This document shows positions 7,440 to 34,336 of a stretch of 34,973 nt of DNA, in pieces. The position numbers were made by a program, and so were the translations under genes. The notes beneath the pieces were generated by a model, which was not told where the DNA came from, did no database searches, and worked only from the letters and a program-made list of their open reading frames with translations. Source of the DNA: Planctomycetota bacterium (lineage in GTDB: Bacteria > Planctomycetota > Planctomycetia > Gemmatales > Gemmataceae); the NCBI GenBank assembly GCA_021413735.1, contig JAIOPV010000233.1, positions 1-34,973 of the forward strand, read 5' to 3'. How positions within the stretch are numbered: position 1 is the first letter of the stretch; each line of letters starts with the position of its first letter.

Positions 7440-7485
7440 GCCGCTTGCGGCGTAGCGTTCTCCAGAGCGCTACGCCGCAAGCGGC
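7440..7485. repeat. Perfect 18-bp inverted repeat, GCCGCTTGCGGC family
   Basis: Arms at 7440-7457 and 7468-7485 are exact reverse complements with a 10-nt loop. The outer part of each arm, CCGCTTGCGG, is itself a small hairpin. The element sits between two convergent genes (ends at 7435 and 7494), so it could terminate transcripts in both directions. The same core recurs at 34290-34336 in the same orientation, and in opposite polarity inside purL at 23133-23179. Confidence 0.85.
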
Positions 7486-9469: not shown

Positions 9470-9483
9470 GGCGGATCTTGTCA

Positions 9484-9535
9484 GAGCCCGAGCGCCAAGC
9501 GAGGGTCAACGCACCCTCGCTTGGCGCTCGGGCTC
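9484..9535. repeat. Perfect 22-bp inverted repeat
   Basis: Arms at 9484-9505 and 9514-9535 match exactly, with an 8-nt loop. The arm core is AGCGCCAAGCGAGGG. It follows the DUF1080 stop at 9469 and precedes the helicase gene, so it can form a very stable terminator-like hairpin, but there is no T-run. Its sequence differs from the other palindromes in the window, so it is probably a separate repeat family. Confidence 0.85.
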
Positions 9536-9647
9536 CGACGAATTGTTTATCGACGGTCCGCTTCCGACACCATTTCTCGCACCTTGCACTGTGTCGAAGT
9601 GCTGTTCGGTCGTTAATCTGGTCATTGGCAAACACCCGAGGCAAGCC

Positions 9648-12170
9648 ATGACCCCGGCCGAACAGCGTTCCGAACTCGCGTCGAAGTATCTCGATCAGCT
9701 CCCGTATCCGCCGTACCCCGTGCAGGAAGAAGCTCTGCTCGCGTGGTTCACGGCGGACCAGGGGGTGATGGTCTGCGCGCCGACAGGCACCGGCAAGACG
9801 CTCATCGCTCAGGCGGCGCTTTACGAAGCTCTCCACACCAACACCGTCGCATATTACACGACGCCGCTGATCGCGCTTACCGAACAGAAGTTCGCGGAGT
9901 TGCAGGTTCAGGCCGTGCGATGGGGCTTCAAGGCCGAGGATGTCGGGCTTGTCACCGGTAACCGCAAGGTGAACCAGAACGCCCGTGTGCTGGTCGTCGT
10001 GGCGGAAATCCTGCTGAACCGCTTGCTCCACGCCGAGGGCTTCGACTTCTCGCACGTCTCCGCGGTCGTGATGGACGAGTTCCACAGCTTCGCTGACCCG
10101 GAACGCGGCATCGTCTGGGAACTGTCGCTGAACATGTTGCCGAAGCACGTTCGCCTGCTGCTGCTGTCGGCGACCGTTGGCAACTCCATCGAGTTCATCA
10201 ACTGGATGGATCGCGTTCACGGTCGAAAAGTGGAACTGGTCGAGGGTCGCGAGCGCAAGATTCCGCTGACGTATCGCTGGGTGCCGGATCAATTCCTGAA
10301 TGAACTCCTCGTCGATATGGCGAAGGGCGACGACGCCACCCGCAAGACGCCGGCGCTCGTGTTCGCCTTCAACCGCGATGAATGTTGGAGCGTGGCCGAG
10401 CAACTCAAGGGGCTCGACCTGATGAACGCTGCCCAGAAGGCGGCGCTCAACAAGGAGTGCGATCTGCTCGAATGGCCACAAGGCGTGGGCCCAAAGTTGA
10501 AGCAGATGCTTCGCCGGGGCGTTGGCGTTCACCATGCGGGACTGCTGCCGAAGTATCGTCGTGTGGTCGAAGACCTGTTCGAGAAGAAGCTGCTGTCGGT
10601 GGCGCTCTGCACGGAAACGCTCGCGGCCGGGATCAACTTGCCCGCACGTTCGGTCGTGGTCACGAGTCTGGTGAAGGGACCGTTCGGCAAGGAAAAGCTG
10701 ATCGACCCGAGTTCGGCACACCAGATCTTCGGGCGGGCGGGTCGCCCACAGTATGACACGGAGGGCTTCGTATTCGCGTATCCGCACGAGGACGATGTGC
10801 GAATCCTTCGCTGGAAACAGCAGTACGACCAGATTCCAGAGAACACGAAAGACCCGGGCTTGCTCAAGGCGAAGAAGTCGCTTCTGAAGAAGAAGCCGAC
10901 GCGGAACTCACAGAAGAAATACTGGACCGAGACCGACTTCGAGAAGCTCAAGAATGCAAGCCCGGCGAGGCTCTACAGCAAGGGGCCGTTGCCGTGGCGA
11001 CTGCTGGCGTACCTGCTGAAGATATCGCCGGATGTGGAGAAGATTCGCAGCGTCGTTCGCAAGCGGTTGTTGGATCAGCCGCGTGTCGAAGCTGGCATGA
11101 AGCAGCTCAATCGGATGCTTATCACGCTGCACAACAAGGGGTTCCTGGTTCTCGATCCGCCACCCCCAGCGCCGGAGGAACCGGGAACCAAGGGTCTGCT
11201 GTCAGGAGTCGGAAGTCCGGAGGCAAGTTCCGACAAGCAGGAAGCTCCAAAGCCGGAAGCGACGAAGGGACTGATCTTCGACATGACGCCAAGGCGAGCG
11301 GGGGACGTCAGTCCCCCGGTGGCACTCCCAACAACCGGAGGGTTGACGCCCCCCGCCTCGCCCAGCGTTCCCGCACGCCCCGAATATGTGCCGGTCACGG
11401 CCACGCCGACGTCCGCACTCGACAAACTGCTCGTGTTCCGTGCGTGTCATCCGCTGTACGGGGCATATCTCGTCGAACTCATGGCGAAGGCGAGCCGCGA
11501 GGAACGGATTCAGCTTCTCGAAAGCGTGCTGGAGTTGCCGCGACCGCTTCTGAAGTATGTGCGGGTGCCGTGGGAACTGCCGCCGGGTCCGCTGCAAACG
11601 GAGAAGCTCGATCCCGAACTGATTAACAAAGGGCTTCTCACCGCGAAGGTGCCACCCCCTCCCGGTGAAGAAGAGGAAGAAGAGGAGTTCGTGCCGTGGG
11701 ACGAGCGACCACCGCTGCTCGCCGAAAAGGCACGCATGTTGTTCGATTCGCAGTATCCGGAAGTGTCGGACTTCAACACGACGGCGGTTTGGGCTGCCGG
11801 CGAAGTGCTGAACTACGGCAACTTCAACACGTTCGTGACCACGAAAGACCTGACGAAACAGGAAGGCTTGATCTTCAGGCACTTGCTGCGGTTGATCCTG
11901 CTCACGGAGGAGTTCGAGCAATTGACACCAGAGGGCGTGGAGCAAGCTGTCTGGCAGGCTGACCTGAAAGAGATCTCGGACAAGCTCGCCGACATTTGCC
12001 GCGCTGTCGATCCGACGAGCACGGAAGAGGCGATCAAGAAGGCACACGCGGCGGATGTGGTCGAAGGCGAAGAACACGCGAAGGCGGTCGTGGCGACAAC
12101 ACCGGAGGCACCGCCGCCGTCAGCGGAGCCTGAGGAAGAAGACGCATTCGGGGCGGGGATTGTGGATTAG
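9648..12170 (+). CDS. Ski2/HelY-like DExH-box helicase
   Basis: The 840-residue protein is a superfamily 2 helicase. Motif I is APTGTGKT (44-51), motif II DEFH (143-146), motif III SAT (174-176) and motif VI QIFGRAGRPQYD (about 359). FAFNRDECWSVAEQLK starts the second RecA domain, and GVGVHHAGLLPKYRRVVEDL is typical of the Ski2/HelY/Hel308 group. These act on structured RNA or DNA; the substrate here is unknown. The ATG at 9648 has GAGG about 6 nt upstream; an upstream extension to 9543 is unlikely. A Pro/Ser/Thr-rich linker of about residues 505-585 contains an imperfect palindrome translated in frame (11293-11362; own entry), and an acidic EEEEEEEF stretch follows later. The stop codon touches the repeat at 12170. 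Confidence 0.9.
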   Translation: MTPAEQRSELASKYLDQLPYPPYPVQEEALLAWFTADQGVMVCAPTGTGKTLIAQAALYEALHTNTVAYYTTPLIALTEQKFAELQVQAVRWGFKAEDVGLVTGNRKVNQNARVLVVVAEILLNRLLHAEGFDFSHVSAVVMDEFHSFADPERGIVWELSLNMLPKHVRLLLLSATVGNSIEFINWMDRVHGRKVELVEGRERKIPLTYRWVPDQFLNELLVDMAKGDDATRKTPALVFAFNRDECWSVAEQLKGLDLMNAAQKAALNKECDLLEWPQGVGPKLKQMLRRGVGVHHAGLLPKYRRVVEDLFEKKLLSVALCTETLAAGINLPARSVVVTSLVKGPFGKEKLIDPSSAHQIFGRAGRPQYDTEGFVFAYPHEDDVRILRWKQQYDQIPENTKDPGLLKAKKSLLKKKPTRNSQKKYWTETDFEKLKNASPARLYSKGPLPWRLLAYLLKISPDVEKIRSVVRKRLLDQPRVEAGMKQLNRMLITLHNKGFLVLDPPPPAPEEPGTKGLLSGVGSPEASSDKQEAPKPEATKGLIFDMTPRRAGDVSPPVALPTTGGLTPPASPSVPARPEYVPVTATPTSALDKLLVFRACHPLYGAYLVELMAKASREERIQLLESVLELPRPLLKYVRVPWELPPGPLQTEKLDPELINKGLLTAKVPPPPGEEEEEEEFVPWDERPPLLAEKARMLFDSQYPEVSDFNTTAVWAAGEVLNYGNFNTFVTTKDLTKQEGLIFRHLLRLILLTEEFEQLTPEGVEQAVWQADLKEISDKLADICRAVDPTSTEEAIKKAHAADVVEGEEHAKAVVATTPEAPPPSAEPEEEDAFGAGIVD
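11208..11234. repeat. Short palindrome in the helicase linker
   Basis: GTCGGAA (11208-11214) and TTCCGAC (11228-11234) form a 7-bp stem around a 13-nt loop. It is translated in frame as part of GVGSPEASSDK, about 60 nt before the larger in-frame palindrome. It could be a degraded repeat remnant or chance. Confidence 0.4.
11293..11362. repeat. Imperfect 28-bp palindrome inside the helicase coding sequence
   Basis: Arms at 11293-11320 and 11334-11362 are about 85% complementary (24 of 28 positions with one extra base). The left arm contains a perfect inner hairpin, GGGGGAC-GTCA-GTCCCCC. It is translated in frame as residues of about 549-572 (AGDVSPPVALPTTGG and LTPPASP) in a low-complexity linker, so it adds flexible sequence without breaking the reading frame. 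Confidence 0.7.
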
Positions 12171-12269
12171 TGTTGAGTGTTTGGTGTTTGGTGTTTCGAT
12201 ATGAAGCCCTTCAATCGCGAACGCAGCACCAGCCACCCAACTAAACACGAAACACCAAACACTCAACAC
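12170..12269. repeat. Inverted repeat of GTGTTTGGTGTTT type between helicase and purU
   Basis: A 20-nt arm at 12170-12189 is exactly complementary to 12250-12269, separated by 60 nt. The left arm continues with a direct tandem of TTTGGTG units to 12197. The first base is the last base of the helicase stop codon, and the right arm ends 7 nt before the purU ATG, so the repeat forms almost the whole intergenic region and the purU leader. Confidence 0.75.
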
Positions 12270-20214: not shown

Positions 20215-20317
20215 GCTTCCCTTATCCGGCTCCTCGACGAGAAGGGCAAGCGGTTTCTTTCGGCCGCGTTCTTATAACTGATGGCGTGCTGAAGGTCTGG
20301 TTCAGGTGCAGCGAAGA

Positions 20318-20500
20318 CCCCCTCACCCGCTCGAAGACTCGCGACCTCTCCCCCAGAAATCGGGGGAGAGGTGGGGCAATTGCATTTCTCTTTCGCTCAA
20401 CCCAATATGTGCCTCAACAAGAAAGCCAAAGAGCCCCACCTCTCCCCCGATTTTTGGGGGAGAGGTCGCGACGAGGCTTTGCGAGTCGCGGGTGAGGGGG
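20318..20500. repeat. 183-bp nested inverted repeat (MITE-like)
   Basis: The ends CCCCCTCACCCGC (20318-20330) and GCGGGTGAGGGGG (20488-20500) are exact reverse complements. Inside each half is another hairpin built from ACCTCTCCCCC and GGGGGAGAGGT (20344-20372 and 20438-20466). The two halves also pair through GTGGGG/CCCCAC around a spacer of about 60 nt with lower GC. It contains no credible gene, and fills most of the gap between DUF1501 and tyrA. It looks like a non-autonomous mobile or repetitive element. No clear target-site duplication could be identified. Confidence 0.8.
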
Positions 20501-20518
20501 CTTTTCCTCACAGGTTCT

Positions 20519-20524
20519 TATAAT
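20519..20524 (+). promoter_or_regulatory. Possible -10 box close to the tyrA start
   Basis: TATAAT at 20519-20524 ends 6 nt before the ATG at 20531. There is no Shine-Dalgarno, so if this is the real -10 box the message would be nearly leaderless. No convincing -35 element is seen. It directly follows the inverted repeat at 20318-20500. Confidence 0.35.
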
Positions 20525-20530
20525 CTCCGC

Positions 20531-21373
20531 ATGCTGTTCGAGCAGATCACGGTTGTCGGCGTGGGGTTGATCGGCGGGTCCGTCGGGCTTGCCGTGCGCG
20601 CCCGCAAACTCGCCGCGAAGGTTGTCGGCGTCGGACGGGATCCGAAAACGCTTGCACGAGCTGTCGAACTCGGGGCGATTGACTCATTCAACACCGAACT
20701 TGCCGTAGGCGTGGCGAACGCCGATCTTGTTGTGGTCTGCACGCCGGTCGATCGCATCGCACAGATGATTCTTGATGCAGCTTCGCACGTTCGACCCGGA
20801 ACAATTTTCACGGATGCTGGCAGCACAAAGCAAAACATCCTGCGTTCGCTTGGGGACCGCCTCCCCGAACACGTCGCATACGTTCCCGCTCATCCGCTTG
20901 CGGGAGCGGAGAAGGCCGGAGTCGAATTCGCTGTGGCGGATCTGTTTCAAGATCGCGTCACGATCATCACGAACCCGGTTGGCGTCGTCACGGAAGCCGC
21001 GATTCGCGTTGAAGGGTTCTGGCGAGCGATCGGTTCCCGAATCGTCCATATGAACCCTGAAGAACACGACCGCGTGCTCGCTTCGACAAGCCACTTGCCG
21101 CACGCGGTTTCGTCTGGTGTCGCGATCTCGACGCCAGTCAACTACCTTCCGCTCTCGGCTGGTGGCTTCCGCGACACAACCCGAATCGCGGCCGGCGACC
21201 CGACCCTTTGGGCAGCGATTTTTCAGGCGAACCGCGAGCAGGTGCTGTCAGCGCTTCGCGTTTTCAACGATCAAATGGCCGACTTCCAGCGACTCCTCGA
21301 AGCCGGCGACGGGGCCGGTCTGACGAAGTGGCTGGCCGAGGCAAAGCAGGTGCGTGATGCTCTGGGAAGTTGA
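20531..21373 (+). CDS. tyrA: Prephenate (arogenate) dehydrogenase
   Basis: The 280-residue enzyme catalyses NAD(P)-dependent oxidation in tyrosine synthesis. An N-terminal Rossmann motif VVGVGLIGGSVGLA (residues 8-21) is followed by DLVVVCTPVDRIAQMI, a DAGSTKQNI motif, the substrate-site segment PAHPLAGAEKAGVEFA, and the helical domain with ASTSHLPHAVSSGVA and SAGGFRDTTRIAAGDPTLWA. There is no chorismate mutase or ACT domain. The ATG at 20531 is chosen because it begins the Rossmann fold; the open frame further upstream is translated repeat. Its end overlaps the start of purL. Confidence 0.93.
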   Translation: MLFEQITVVGVGLIGGSVGLAVRARKLAAKVVGVGRDPKTLARAVELGAIDSFNTELAVGVANADLVVVCTPVDRIAQMILDAASHVRPGTIFTDAGSTKQNILRSLGDRLPEHVAYVPAHPLAGAEKAGVEFAVADLFQDRVTIITNPVGVVTEAAIRVEGFWRAIGSRIVHMNPEEHDRVLASTSHLPHAVSSGVAISTPVNYLPLSAGGFRDTTRIAAGDPTLWAAIFQANREQVLSALRVFNDQMADFQRLLEAGDGAGLTKWLAEAKQVRDALGS

Positions 21374-24236
21374 GATTCGACCACTCGGCCGCGATGGCGA
21401 ACGTGAGCGAGTTTGCGATGAGTTCGACCTGCTCACGCACGCACAACGCGGCGGCGATCTCGTTTCCGCGTCGGCCCGCGGCTACCTCCTCGAAGGCAAT
21501 CTCACGCCAGAGCAACTCGAACAACTCACGACCGAAGTGCTGATCGATCCGCTCGTGGAAACCGGCAGCACGGCACACGCGGGAGGCGGTGCGGATCAGT
21601 TCTACACGGTGCTGCTGAAGCCGGGCGTTATGGACCCCACCGCCCAGACCGTGCTCGACTCCGCAAAGATGCTCGGGCTACCGGTGACGGGCGTTCGCAC
21701 GTTCCGCCGCTACTTCGGACCACTGGAAATCTCGTCGCTTGATCGCGACACGCTCTTTCGCAAAGTCCTGTCGAACGACGCCATCGAGCAGGTTGTGGTG
21801 GGGCCGGTGAAGGCTTCGCACCTCGGCGTCGGGTCTGCGTATGCGTTCAAGCTCATCACGGTGCCGCTGACGACGCTCGATGATGCGGCGCTGGTGAAGC
21901 TCAGCAAGGATGGTATGCTCGCGCTGACGCTCGACGAGATGAAGGTAGTGCAATCGCACTTCCGGGAGCTGGGACGCGAGCCGACCGACATCGAACTGGA
22001 ATCGATCGCGCAAACGTGGTCGGAACACTGCTCGCACAAGACGCTCAAGGGCACCATTACACTACACGACAAGACCACGGGCGAGACGCGGACGTACAAG
22101 AATTTGCTGAAGGAAACGGTGTTTGCGGCGACGCAGCAGATTCGCCAGAACCTCGGTGCCGACGACTGGTGCGTGAGTGTGTTCGCCGACAATGCTGGCG
22201 TCGTGAAGTTTGACGACCAGAACCATCTCTGCTTCAAGGTGGAGACGCACAACCACCCGTCGGCCATCGAACCGTATGGCGGCGCGAACACGGGGCTGGG
22301 TGGCGTCATCCGCGACTTGCTCGGCACGGGACTGGCCGCGAAGCCGGTCTGCAACACGGACGTGTTCTGCTTCGCACCGCCGGATTTCCCTGCGGATCAG
22401 CTGCCGCAAGGTGTGCTGCATCCGCGGCGAGTGATGCACGGCGTCGTCGCCGGTGTCCGCGATTACGGTAACCGCATGGGCATTCCCACGGTCAACGGCG
22501 CGATTCTGTTTGATGAACGCTACCTCGCGAATCCGCTCGTTTTCTGCGGCACGGTCGGCATCATCCCGGCCGACAAAGCGTTCAAGCAAGTGTTGGATGG
22601 CGATCTCATCGTTGCGGTCGGTGGCCGCACGGGTCGCGATGGCATTCACGGGGCGACGTTCTCCAGCCTGGAACTGACGCACGAATCGGAGACTGTCAGC
22701 GGCGGTGCCGTGCAGATCGGCAACGCGATCACGGAGAAGAAAGTTCAGGATGTGATCCTGCAAGCACGCGACCGCAATCTGTTCACGGCGATCACCGACT
22801 GCGGGGCAGGGGGCTTCAGCTCGGCGGTCGGCGAAATGGCTGCGGAACTCGGCGCGACGGTCGATCTCGCGACCGCCCCGCTGAAGTACGAAGGGCTGAG
22901 CTACACGGAAATTTGGATCAGCGAATCACAGGAACGGATGGTGCTGTCGGTGCCGCAGAGCAAGTGGCCGGAACTGAAAGCACTCTGCGAATCCGAGGAT
23001 GTGGAAGCCGTCGCACTGGGCACATTCGAGGCGACTGGCCGCTTGAAGTTGAAGTTCGGCGAGCAGGTCGTTGCGGATTTGGACATGCACTTCCTGCACG
23101 ATGGCCGACCGAACCAAGTACGAAGCGCTACGTGCAACGCCGCAAGAGGCGAAACAGTGTCGCCGCTTGCGGCGTTGCAAACACACACTCCAAGTTCAGC
23201 ACTTCTCGCTATCCTCGGCAGCCATTCCGTGTGCTCAAAAGAATGGGTCATTCGGCAGTACGACCACGAAGTGCAAGGCGGCAGCGTCGTCAAGCCGCTC
23301 GTTGGCGTGAAGAACGACGGCCCTTCCGATGCGGCTGTCATCATGCCGGTGCTCGGTTCGTGGACCGGTGCGGCCGTCGGATGCGGCATCAACCCGCTGT
23401 TCGGCGATCCGTACTGGATGGGCGCCGCCGCCATCGACGAAGCCATGCGAAACGTCGTCGCGGTCGGGGCCGACCCGAAACGCACCGCGATCCTCGATAA
23501 CTTCTGTTGGGGCAACGTCAACGACCCCGAAGTTCTCGGTGCCCTCGTTCGCACGGCGGAAGCATGTCGTGATGTCGCCATCGCGTTCGGCACGCCGTTC
23601 ATCAGTGGCAAGGACAGTCTCAATAACACCTACGCCGGCAAGCACGGCGAACGCATCAACATCCCGCACACGTTGCTCGTGTCGGCGCTCGGTCGCGTGC
23701 CGGACGTGCGGAAGTGCGTCACGATGGATTTGAAAGAAGCCGGCAACTCGCTCTACCTCGTCGGCAGCAGCAAAGACGAAATGGCTGGCTCGCATCTGCA
23801 TGTCGTCACCGGGCAGACTGGCGGGCAGGTGCCGAAGGTCGATCTCGAACTCGCTCCGAAGGTATTCGCAGCGGTTCATGCCGCGATCAGCGGCGGATTC
23901 GTGCGGGCCTGTCACGATCTCAGCGAGGGTGGGCTTGCGGTCGCCGTCGCTGAGATGGCATTCGCGGGCGGCATTGGCGTTGATGTCACGAAACTGCCCG
24001 GCACGTTTTCGGATGAAGTGAAACTCTTCAGCGAGTCGTGTACGCGGTTCGTGGTCGAAGTGAAGCCAGAACACGCGGCTGCGTTCGAGACGTGCTTCGC
24101 GAATCTGCCGCTTGCCAAGATCGGCGTCACGGTTGCGGAACCGCGGTTGCGTGTCGCCGGGAACGCTGGCGACTGGCTACTGTGGGTGAAGCTCGCGGAC
24201 CTGAAAGAAGCCTGGCAGAAGCCGCTGCGGTGGTGA
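21357..24236 (+). CDS. purL: Phosphoribosylformylglycinamidine synthase, PurS-PurL fusion
   Basis: The 959-residue enzyme catalyses the fourth step of purine synthesis, FGAR to FGAM. The N-terminal about 200 residues are PurS-like: MLWEVEIRPLGRDG and the signature LLKPGVMDPTAQTVLDSAK with VTGVRTFRRYF. The PurL catalytic part includes IAQTWSEHCSHKTLKG, ETHNHPSAIEPYGGANTG, TDCGAGGFSSAVGEMAAELG, ASKEWVI-like SKEWVIRQYDHEVQGG and SGKDSLNNTY. No glutaminase domain is fused, so a separate PurQ is expected elsewhere. Residues 593-608 (CNAARGETVSPLAALQ) are encoded by an in-frame palindromic repeat, 23133-23179. ATG 21357 or the adjacent GTG 21354 is the start, both inside tyrA, implying translational coupling. 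Confidence 0.95.
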   Translation: MLWEVEIRPLGRDGERERVCDEFDLLTHAQRGGDLVSASARGYLLEGNLTPEQLEQLTTEVLIDPLVETGSTAHAGGGADQFYTVLLKPGVMDPTAQTVLDSAKMLGLPVTGVRTFRRYFGPLEISSLDRDTLFRKVLSNDAIEQVVVGPVKASHLGVGSAYAFKLITVPLTTLDDAALVKLSKDGMLALTLDEMKVVQSHFRELGREPTDIELESIAQTWSEHCSHKTLKGTITLHDKTTGETRTYKNLLKETVFAATQQIRQNLGADDWCVSVFADNAGVVKFDDQNHLCFKVETHNHPSAIEPYGGANTGLGGVIRDLLGTGLAAKPVCNTDVFCFAPPDFPADQLPQGVLHPRRVMHGVVAGVRDYGNRMGIPTVNGAILFDERYLANPLVFCGTVGIIPADKAFKQVLDGDLIVAVGGRTGRDGIHGATFSSLELTHESETVSGGAVQIGNAITEKKVQDVILQARDRNLFTAITDCGAGGFSSAVGEMAAELGATVDLATAPLKYEGLSYTEIWISESQERMVLSVPQSKWPELKALCESEDVEAVALGTFEATGRLKLKFGEQVVADLDMHFLHDGRPNQVRSATCNAARGETVSPLAALQTHTPSSALLAILGSHSVCSKEWVIRQYDHEVQGGSVVKPLVGVKNDGPSDAAVIMPVLGSWTGAAVGCGINPLFGDPYWMGAAAIDEAMRNVVAVGADPKRTAILDNFCWGNVNDPEVLGALVRTAEACRDVAIAFGTPFISGKDSLNNTYAGKHGERINIPHTLLVSALGRVPDVRKCVTMDLKEAGNSLYLVGSSKDEMAGSHLHVVTGQTGGQVPKVDLELAPKVFAAVHAAISGGFVRACHDLSEGGLAVAVAEMAFAGGIGVDVTKLPGTFSDEVKLFSESCTRFVVEVKPEHAAAFETCFANLPLAKIGVTVAEPRLRVAGNAGDWLLWVKLADLKEAWQKPLRW
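23133..23179. repeat. In-frame palindromic repeat inside purL
   Basis: Arms at 23133-23151 and 23161-23179 match at 18 of 19 positions around a 9-nt loop. The right arm, CGCCGCTTGCGGCGTTGCA, carries the same core as the intergenic palindromes at 7440-7485 and 34290-34336, but with the arms in opposite polarity (TGCA outward instead of GCCGC outward). It starts at a codon boundary and encodes CNAARGETVSPLAALQ between the DMHFLHDGRP motif and the SKEWVIRQYDHEVQG motif of PurL. Most other PurL proteins, as I recall them, have a short spacer there. Confidence 0.85.
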
Positions 24237-28722: not shown

Positions 28723-28833
28723 GTGGACCGCGGGCGGCTCGCCCGCAAAGCCTGTCGAGTTCGGTTGGGTCAAGGTTGTCCCCGGACAGCGATTGGTGAT
28801 GTTCAGGCAGCGGGCGAGCCGCCCGCGGTCCAC
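28723..28833. repeat. Perfect 24-bp inverted repeat between tatC and cobA-hemD
   Basis: Arms at 28723-28746 and 28810-28833 match exactly, separated by 63 nt. Each arm contains an inner hairpin, GCGGGC-GGCTC-GCCCGC. It starts 27 nt after the tatC stop and carries no gene of its own. The spacing is too long for a typical terminator, so it is better read as a repeat element. Confidence 0.85.
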
Positions 28834-34289: not shown

Positions 34290-34336
34290 GCCGCTTGCGG
34301 CGTTGCATCAAACAGATGTGCAACGCCGCAAGCGGC
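34290..34336. repeat. Perfect 18-bp inverted repeat, GCCGCTTGCGGC family
   Basis: Arms at 34290-34307 and 34319-34336 are exact reverse complements with an 11-nt loop. The arms are nearly identical to those of the purL insert (23133-23179) but in the opposite arrangement, and share their first 14 bases with the arms at 7440-7485. It lies 13 nt after the UxaA stop and 8 nt before the next ribosome-binding site, so it may also act as a terminator. Confidence 0.88.

Follow-up and report, generated by a model that had tools for sequence, protein, structure and literature searches.

The DNA analyzed here, referred to throughout as the window, is a stretch of 34,973 nucleotides from a planctomycete of the Gemmataceae. 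A reading frame with its ATG at 9648 and its stop at 12170 encodes a Ski2-like helicase, and inside that frame lies the inverted repeat with which this report is concerned (Table 1). Low confidence at residues 511–575 of a structure model built from a 24-sequence alignment, together with the folded modules on either side, places the insert in a predicted disordered interdomain linker. An alignment of homologs shows that few parts of the helicase are as poorly conserved as this linker. The peptide is not common to the homologs in different codons, and the possibility that it is a conserved peptide was rejected because the linker is so poorly conserved; the sequence-only reading, which saw a DNA repeat here, thus stands.

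Table 1. Features of the helicase gene and of the inverted repeat within it (window coordinates)
Feature	Position	Strand	Basis or remarks
Host gene, Ski2-like DEAD/DEAH helicase, 840 aa	9648..12170	+	Translation; PF00270, PF00271; best PDB chains Ski2/Mtr4
Predicted disordered interdomain linker, residues 511–575	11178..11372	+	AlphaFold pLDDT <50; folded modules on each side
Left REP unit	11293..11320	+	Head GGCGAGC, hairpin GGGGGAC-GTCA-GTCCCCC (11300–11317), tail GGT; genomic copies known
Spacer separating the units, 13 nt	11321..11333	+	
Right REP unit, inverted, partly diverged	11334..11362	-	
Entire inverted REP pair (REPIN-like)	11293..11362	.	Helicase residues 549–572

The element had been described as a 70-bp imperfect palindrome with an inner perfect hairpin, translated in frame in a Ski2-like helicase, and arm pairing, folding, and position in the open reading frame all bear this out. 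The arms 11298–11320 and 11334–11356, 13 nt apart, are 83% complementary, and the outer arms 11293–11304 and 11351–11362 also pair. As DNA, the segment 11285–11370 folds with an energy of −30.5 kcal/mol, compared with a mean of −16.6 for shuffled sequences (z −6.25, with none of 200 shuffles as stable). The term "palindrome" needs refinement, however: the inverted pairing is real, but what is paired is two copies of a self-hairpin unit of about 28 nt, of which the right-hand one has diverged. In most paired copies of the family to which the element belongs (family A), two of the three reading frames are open.

The half-element GGCGAGCGGGGGACGTCA occurs only once within the window at up to 3 mismatches. 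In the genome from which the window comes (G000, a 9.8-Mb draft that is 95.7% complete) it is found at up to 2 mismatches in 56 places, 31 forward and 25 reverse, compared with one for the same pattern written backwards, so that the other genomic copies expected of a repeat do exist. Like the other copy numbers given below, these counts derive from pattern searches and individually retrieved stretches. They bear directly on the simplest alternative, a chance or compositional palindrome of G+C-rich coding DNA. Such palindromes do arise, in that five triplet-shuffled windows gave one or two each at a score of at least 11, but the window itself contains 11, and the half-site count and the folding score are so far from their controls that we have rejected this reading as having virtually no likelihood.

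With a looser form of the unit, matches are obtained in 16 of the 19 genomes of the genus, G000 included, at between 1 and 254 places each, although the single match in each of G007 and G009 equals that of the control and is at the level of chance. Pairing is frequent. Long inverted pairs of 64–88 bp account for 16 of 37 family-A loci in G000 and for 40 of 69 loci in G013, the latter drawn from among the matches listed by the pattern search. Their spacers are distinct in all 16 G000 pairs and in 35 of the 40 from G013 (again among the matches listed), and single 32-nt units, such as L018 and L029, exist too. Fifteen additional stretches of G000 were also examined, of which three (L147, L148, and L150) contain no element under a longer pattern. 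These repeats share with REP/REPIN sequences a high copy number of a short palindromic unit and, in both G000 and G013, inverted pairing around a spacer. They are also mostly extragenic, with 29 of the 37 G000 loci and 55 of the 69 G013 loci (among the matches listed) left unflagged by an automatic test of open reading frame and codon usage alone. The unpaired GTAG or CGTC end that marks the GTAG and CGTC REP superfamilies is not present; the unit starts with GGCGAG(C).

REP sequences elsewhere are associated with RAYT-type transposases (TnpA-REP), and a profile search for PF01797 gave 11 matches in G000, 4 in G013, and 7 in G008. Several RAYT-type genes carry a palindrome family of their own on both flanks: L115/L127, L119, and L121 in G008, L122/L126 and L124 in G000, and L128 in G010. 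The flanks of L127 and L128 are GCGAGCGGCGCGGCGTCAGCCCGCCGGT-type units that have the head GCGAGCG, the loop, and the tail CGGT in common with the window unit and differ from it in the stem. Those of L126 are GAGCGTCGAGGCGTCAGCCCGACGGT-type units, a looser match to the window unit, with outer copies that start TGAGCG, and L121 and L124 are flanked by a different palindrome family. In 6 of 22 Y1 loci no palindrome scores 12 or more. A gene flanked by the exact window unit or stem was sought among the RAYT loci of G000 (the 95.7% complete draft), G008, G010, and G013, and none was found, so the window element is tied to a transposase by plan and kinship, not identity. How such a difference may come about is suggested by L119 of G008 and L123 of G000, RAYT-type genes that are 81.6% identical and whose flanking palindromes, which in L123 are strong on the 3′ side only, have a common head, GTTTAGCCGCGA, and different stems; to judge from these sequences, stems may change while heads persist.

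The flanked genes L115 and L122 may be relatives of the class 3 TnpA-Y1 proteins, a rare group, found chiefly in Planctomycetes, Acidobacteria, and Proteobacteria, with flanking hairpins that can reach high numbers in a genome (PMC6006769). The resemblance lies in length (178 there, 175 and 185 here), in the hairpins on the flanks of the genes, and in the NHVH and WT motifs of L115. Unlike the class 3 elements as that source presents them, however, the head GGCGAGC lacks the CnGA foot, and in place of YV[VI]xEQ there is YVKRQE in L115 and YVFRQE in L122.

Other palindromes are scattered through the window. An intergenic one at 9480–9539, a short way upstream of the helicase, is similar to the units on the flanks of the RAYT-type genes L121 and L124. 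Three more, at 7440–7485, 23133–23179, and 34290–34336, have GCCGCTTGCGGCGT in common; the first and last of these follow the ends of open reading frames, and the second is inside the frame 21354–24236 and may be the purL case mentioned in the sequence-only reading. From the stop codon of the helicase, a 27-nt inverted repeat (GTGTTGAGTGTTTGGTGTTT...) of another, A+T-richer type occupies 12170–12269. Long palindromes with arms of 39 and 24 nt are found at 20339–20471 and 28723–28833, one of them at the start of the frame 20306–21373.

The helicase is not the only gene to be entered. Eight of the 37 family-A loci in G000 have an open reading frame through the element and coding-type codon usage on both sides. 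Besides the helicase, they comprise UvrA twice, a CobW-type protein, DprA, an acyltransferase/dehydratase (polyketide-synthase-like) protein, a protein without assignment, and a GTPase whose single unit is weak. In several, known domains lie to either side of the element, which is at residues 481–506 of DprA (between Pfam domains at 255–461 and 507–566), at 249–272 of the CobW-type protein (between 29–197 and 287–367), and at 461–486 of the acyltransferase protein (between 123–425 and 721–849); the pair in UvrA, at 301–324, falls where a solved UvrA chain has a gap. The earlier suggestion that insertion into coding regions may be common here is borne out by these cases. Fourteen of the 69 G013 loci (among the matches listed) were likewise flagged as being within genes, and in five the protein family supports the assignment: the helicase, ValS (valS), MgsA/RarA (mgsA/rarA), an Lhr-type helicase, and an Hsp70-like protein. 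Two flagged loci, L179 and L209, are upstream of the conserved domain and probably intergenic, and seven have no Pfam match and may represent spurious reading frames. The single units in ValS, MgsA/RarA, and the Lhr-type helicase fall within Pfam-matched stretches, and tolerance thus reaches beyond linkers.

The helicase linker is occupied again and again. An inverted repeat scoring at least 13 is present in 10 of 55 homologous helicase linkers and in 4 of 1933 control windows of the same length taken elsewhere in the same reading frames; at a score of at least 11, the value reached by the window's own diverged pair, which is included at this threshold, the numbers are 12 of 55 and 12 of 1933. 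Since there is overlap among the control windows and related linkers do not count as independent, no p value is attached to this enrichment. Three incomplete linkers (L045, L049, and L086) were left out of the comparison. One strong control match, in the row of the window itself, fits the intergenic palindrome 9480–9539 and arises from a reading frame that was extended upstream there. The score permits loops of up to 60 nt and requires pairing within a contig, and so it misses the pair in G016, with 111 nt between units, the pair in G018, divided between two contigs, and single units such as that of G010.

Several repeat families are represented among these linkers. They include GGCGAGCCGGGAG[C/G]GTCAGCGACCGGAG in G013 and G014, C-rich units in G001, G004, and G005, GGCGAACCCCGAGCGTGAGCGAGGGGGT in L071, and a GGGGTGGCAGT-type unit in a Pirellulales bacterium. 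Three of the families were searched for in the genomes that carry them, and all three are abundant there: the G013 unit has 116 places in its genome, the L071 unit 126, and the G005 arm 75, with 12 further places in G001 and 3 in G004. In G016 and G018 the units flank a longer stretch of linker on both sides. The arms in G001 and G004 enclose a stretch encoding PTLLEQALA-like residues, and as the same stretch occurs without arms in G017 and G011, this "loop" is probably older host sequence. The G016 pair (L048) is accompanied by a frameshift, its left unit having runs one G and one C shorter than those of its right partner. This reflects either a broken gene or misread homopolymer runs and, unless the latter applies, implies that insertion or subsequent decay is not always tolerated.

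A second site, at a junction in UvrA near residue 301, behaves in the same way. Palindromes are present in G000, G010, and G014, that is, in 3 of the 15 genomes with a fragment covering the site (the G003 fragment ends short of it), and that of G014 belongs to another family. By eye, an alignment of 8 of 11 genomes, without G010, G014, and G016, shows that G013 has a single unit of family B at this site and G008 a family-A copy that has decayed. Two palindromes occur elsewhere in UvrA, near residue 1047 in G014 and near residue 890 in G005. The UvrA sequences of L253 (G000:C281) and L254–L266 are contained in open frames of 1773–2616 aa, most of which show a second, weaker UvrA match directly after the first, as if two copies had fused. 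The proposal that new linkers may arise from the repeat is therefore apt as a description of the helicase and UvrA sites; that the inserts are useful is conjecture.

Taken together, these observations make it very probable that the window element is a REPIN-like, nonautonomous mobile element of inverted REP units, served by RAYT-type movers and tolerated in a disordered linker. Two units of about 28 nt, inverted around an arbitrary spacer, would constitute the element, and its family would have spread over related Gemmataceae genomes, most likely by movement as single-stranded hairpins through the action of RAYT-type (Y1/HUH) transposases. One copy would then have entered the helicase gene and, being presumably neutral, would have persisted there because the frame in use is free of stops, the net change in length keeps the frame, and a disordered interdomain linker can be expected to tolerate some 24 extra residues. 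The presence of other REP families in relatives at both the helicase linker and the UvrA junction suggests that the two act as recurrent landing sites.

Recurrence of this kind could have causes other than tolerance. The transposase, or replication, might prefer certain sites, such as resident hairpins or the single strands of the lagging strand, so that what is observed is not survivorship alone. That more than one family has settled at a shared junction in each of two genes speaks for such targeting, but the helicase site is predicted to be disordered and several others are interdomain, and tolerance alone predicts survivors in just these places; we consider targeting unlikely. Alternatively, the hairpin or its peptide may have been recruited, with the insert retained because of a tuning effect on the linker, on translation, or on mRNA stability. 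The frame does stay open, and six of the seven other flagged in-gene copies in G000, admittedly a small sample, use a single frame, reading LASGGR or the close variants EASGGR and LANGGR, though two frames are mostly open. Close relatives, however, have wholly different linkers, an example being G007 and G009, where a core identity of 98.6% is accompanied by linkers of 85 and 50 residues, and recruitment seems very unlikely. Tolerated insertion of a mobile repeat remains our preferred explanation.

A more finely balanced question is whether the elements at one site in different species were inserted separately or descend from a single event. The helicase tree groups G000 and G008 as sisters (100/98), followed by G013 (100/98) and then G014 (93/82); topology alone was used, as 37 of its 52 rows fall into no group and a count of gains would be uninformative. 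The linker holds a family-A element in G000, a family-B element at the same place in G013 (L061, 91.2% core identity), and no recognizable palindrome in G008 (L062, 93.5% core identity). Between the same flanks, the window and L061 palindromes are offset by 8 nt on the left and end at the same place on the right. The two differ in family and, measured from the element head, in reading frame, which favors separate insertions, whereas the near-identical insertion points and the UvrA sites of the same trio, with family A, a decayed copy of it, and a family-B unit, favor an old insertion followed by replacement. A clean empty site that would fix the ends of the insert or reveal a target-site duplication was not found at either gene, the helicase of G008 differing over a wider stretch and its UvrA retaining a remnant.

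The arms themselves contain some record of this history. Mismatches between arms average 1.12 within elements and 2.58 between elements in G000, and 0.75 and 1.30 in G013, with none of 5000 permutations as low in either genome. Among the matches listed for G013, exact agreement with the pattern is confined to the two arms of the helicase element, and a C>G change common to both is private among the 40 pairs examined. Of the changes private to an element, 7 in G000 are shared by both arms and 8 are confined to one, compared with 2 and 20, respectively, in G013; by these counts, correction from arm to arm is plausible in G000 and has weak support in G013. Changes common to both arms would also result from the copying of an unseen parent element. 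It is quite conceivable, if short of probable, that a single insertion preceded the split of G000, G008, and G013 and that its arms were later replaced or homogenized, through REP-on-REP conversion or hairpin template switching, while decaying in G008. The shared flanks, the likeness of arms within elements, the private change in G013, and the UvrA trio would all follow. Less easily accommodated are the different families and frames, the lack of any recognizable palindrome in the helicase linker of G008, the sister of G000, and the excess of one-armed changes in G013.

A bolder, and rather doubtful, extension would regard some interdomain linkers of Gemmataceae as long-lived landing pads in which one REP family is replaced in place by another, while hairpin-templated correction copies changes from arm to arm. 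A single DNA event would then recode two stretches of the same linker at once. Were this so, the sequence of such linkers would be set by the turnover of DNA parasites and not by ordinary substitution.

Comparison with known systems shows that the kind of event is familiar. The many short hairpin units, their frequent inverted pairing, variable spacers, several families per genome, and family-specific flanks of RAYT genes are all as in REP/REPIN systems, from which the present family is set apart by its GGCGAG(C) head, by the lack of an exact-stem RAYT gene among those found in the genome, and by the sizeable minority of copies inside conserved genes. REPs within the open reading frames of several bacteria were described in 2013, with repair genes prominent among the hosts (PMC3733652). 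According to that report, uvrA was host to REPs twice in Opitutus terrae and Thioalkalivibrio, two Xanthomonas species carry one in recB at nearly matching positions, REPs are present in Planctomycetes, and flexible linkers and loops were proposed as tolerated sites. The intragenic GTAG/CGTC REPs of Opitutus terrae, Rickettsia conorii, Thauera, and others are, like those here, in-frame singles or dimers, the dimers coding for 20–30 residues; ours are of other sequence families, and one linker is used across many species by several of them, including in a Pirellulales homolog (PMC3733652). Rickettsia palindromic elements are also translated in frame in unrelated genes (PMC10969869 and PMC3733652), but they are about 150 bp in length (PMC10969869) and of other sequence, and the 64–88-bp pairs of Gemmataceae do not belong among them. 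REPs have elsewhere been defined as rarely overlapping coding regions, in a paper in which the term "planctomyc" was looked for and not found (PMC12306157). Our literature searches, judged by their best matches, found no paper that deals with REPs in Gemmata or with orthologous linkers occupied repeatedly by REPs; one of them listed 12 papers, none of which has the word Gemmata, and "palindromic" in the Gemmata massiliana genome paper refers to CRISPR. As far as these searches extend, what is new is the Gemmataceae lineage with its families, the head motif, and the fact that orthologous linkers are occupied again and again, in many species, by different repeats.

With relatives carrying other repeats at the same spot, these linkers seem to have been repeatedly rewritten by DNA parasites. 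The helicase and its homologs offer a comparable set of orthologous sites at which different mobile hairpins became protein sequence, and through close strains they make it possible to test whether new linkers originate from small mobile repeats and whether arm-to-arm correction operates inside genes. They also carry a warning, namely that Pro/Gly/Ser-rich linkers in the proteins of these bacteria may be translated repeats.
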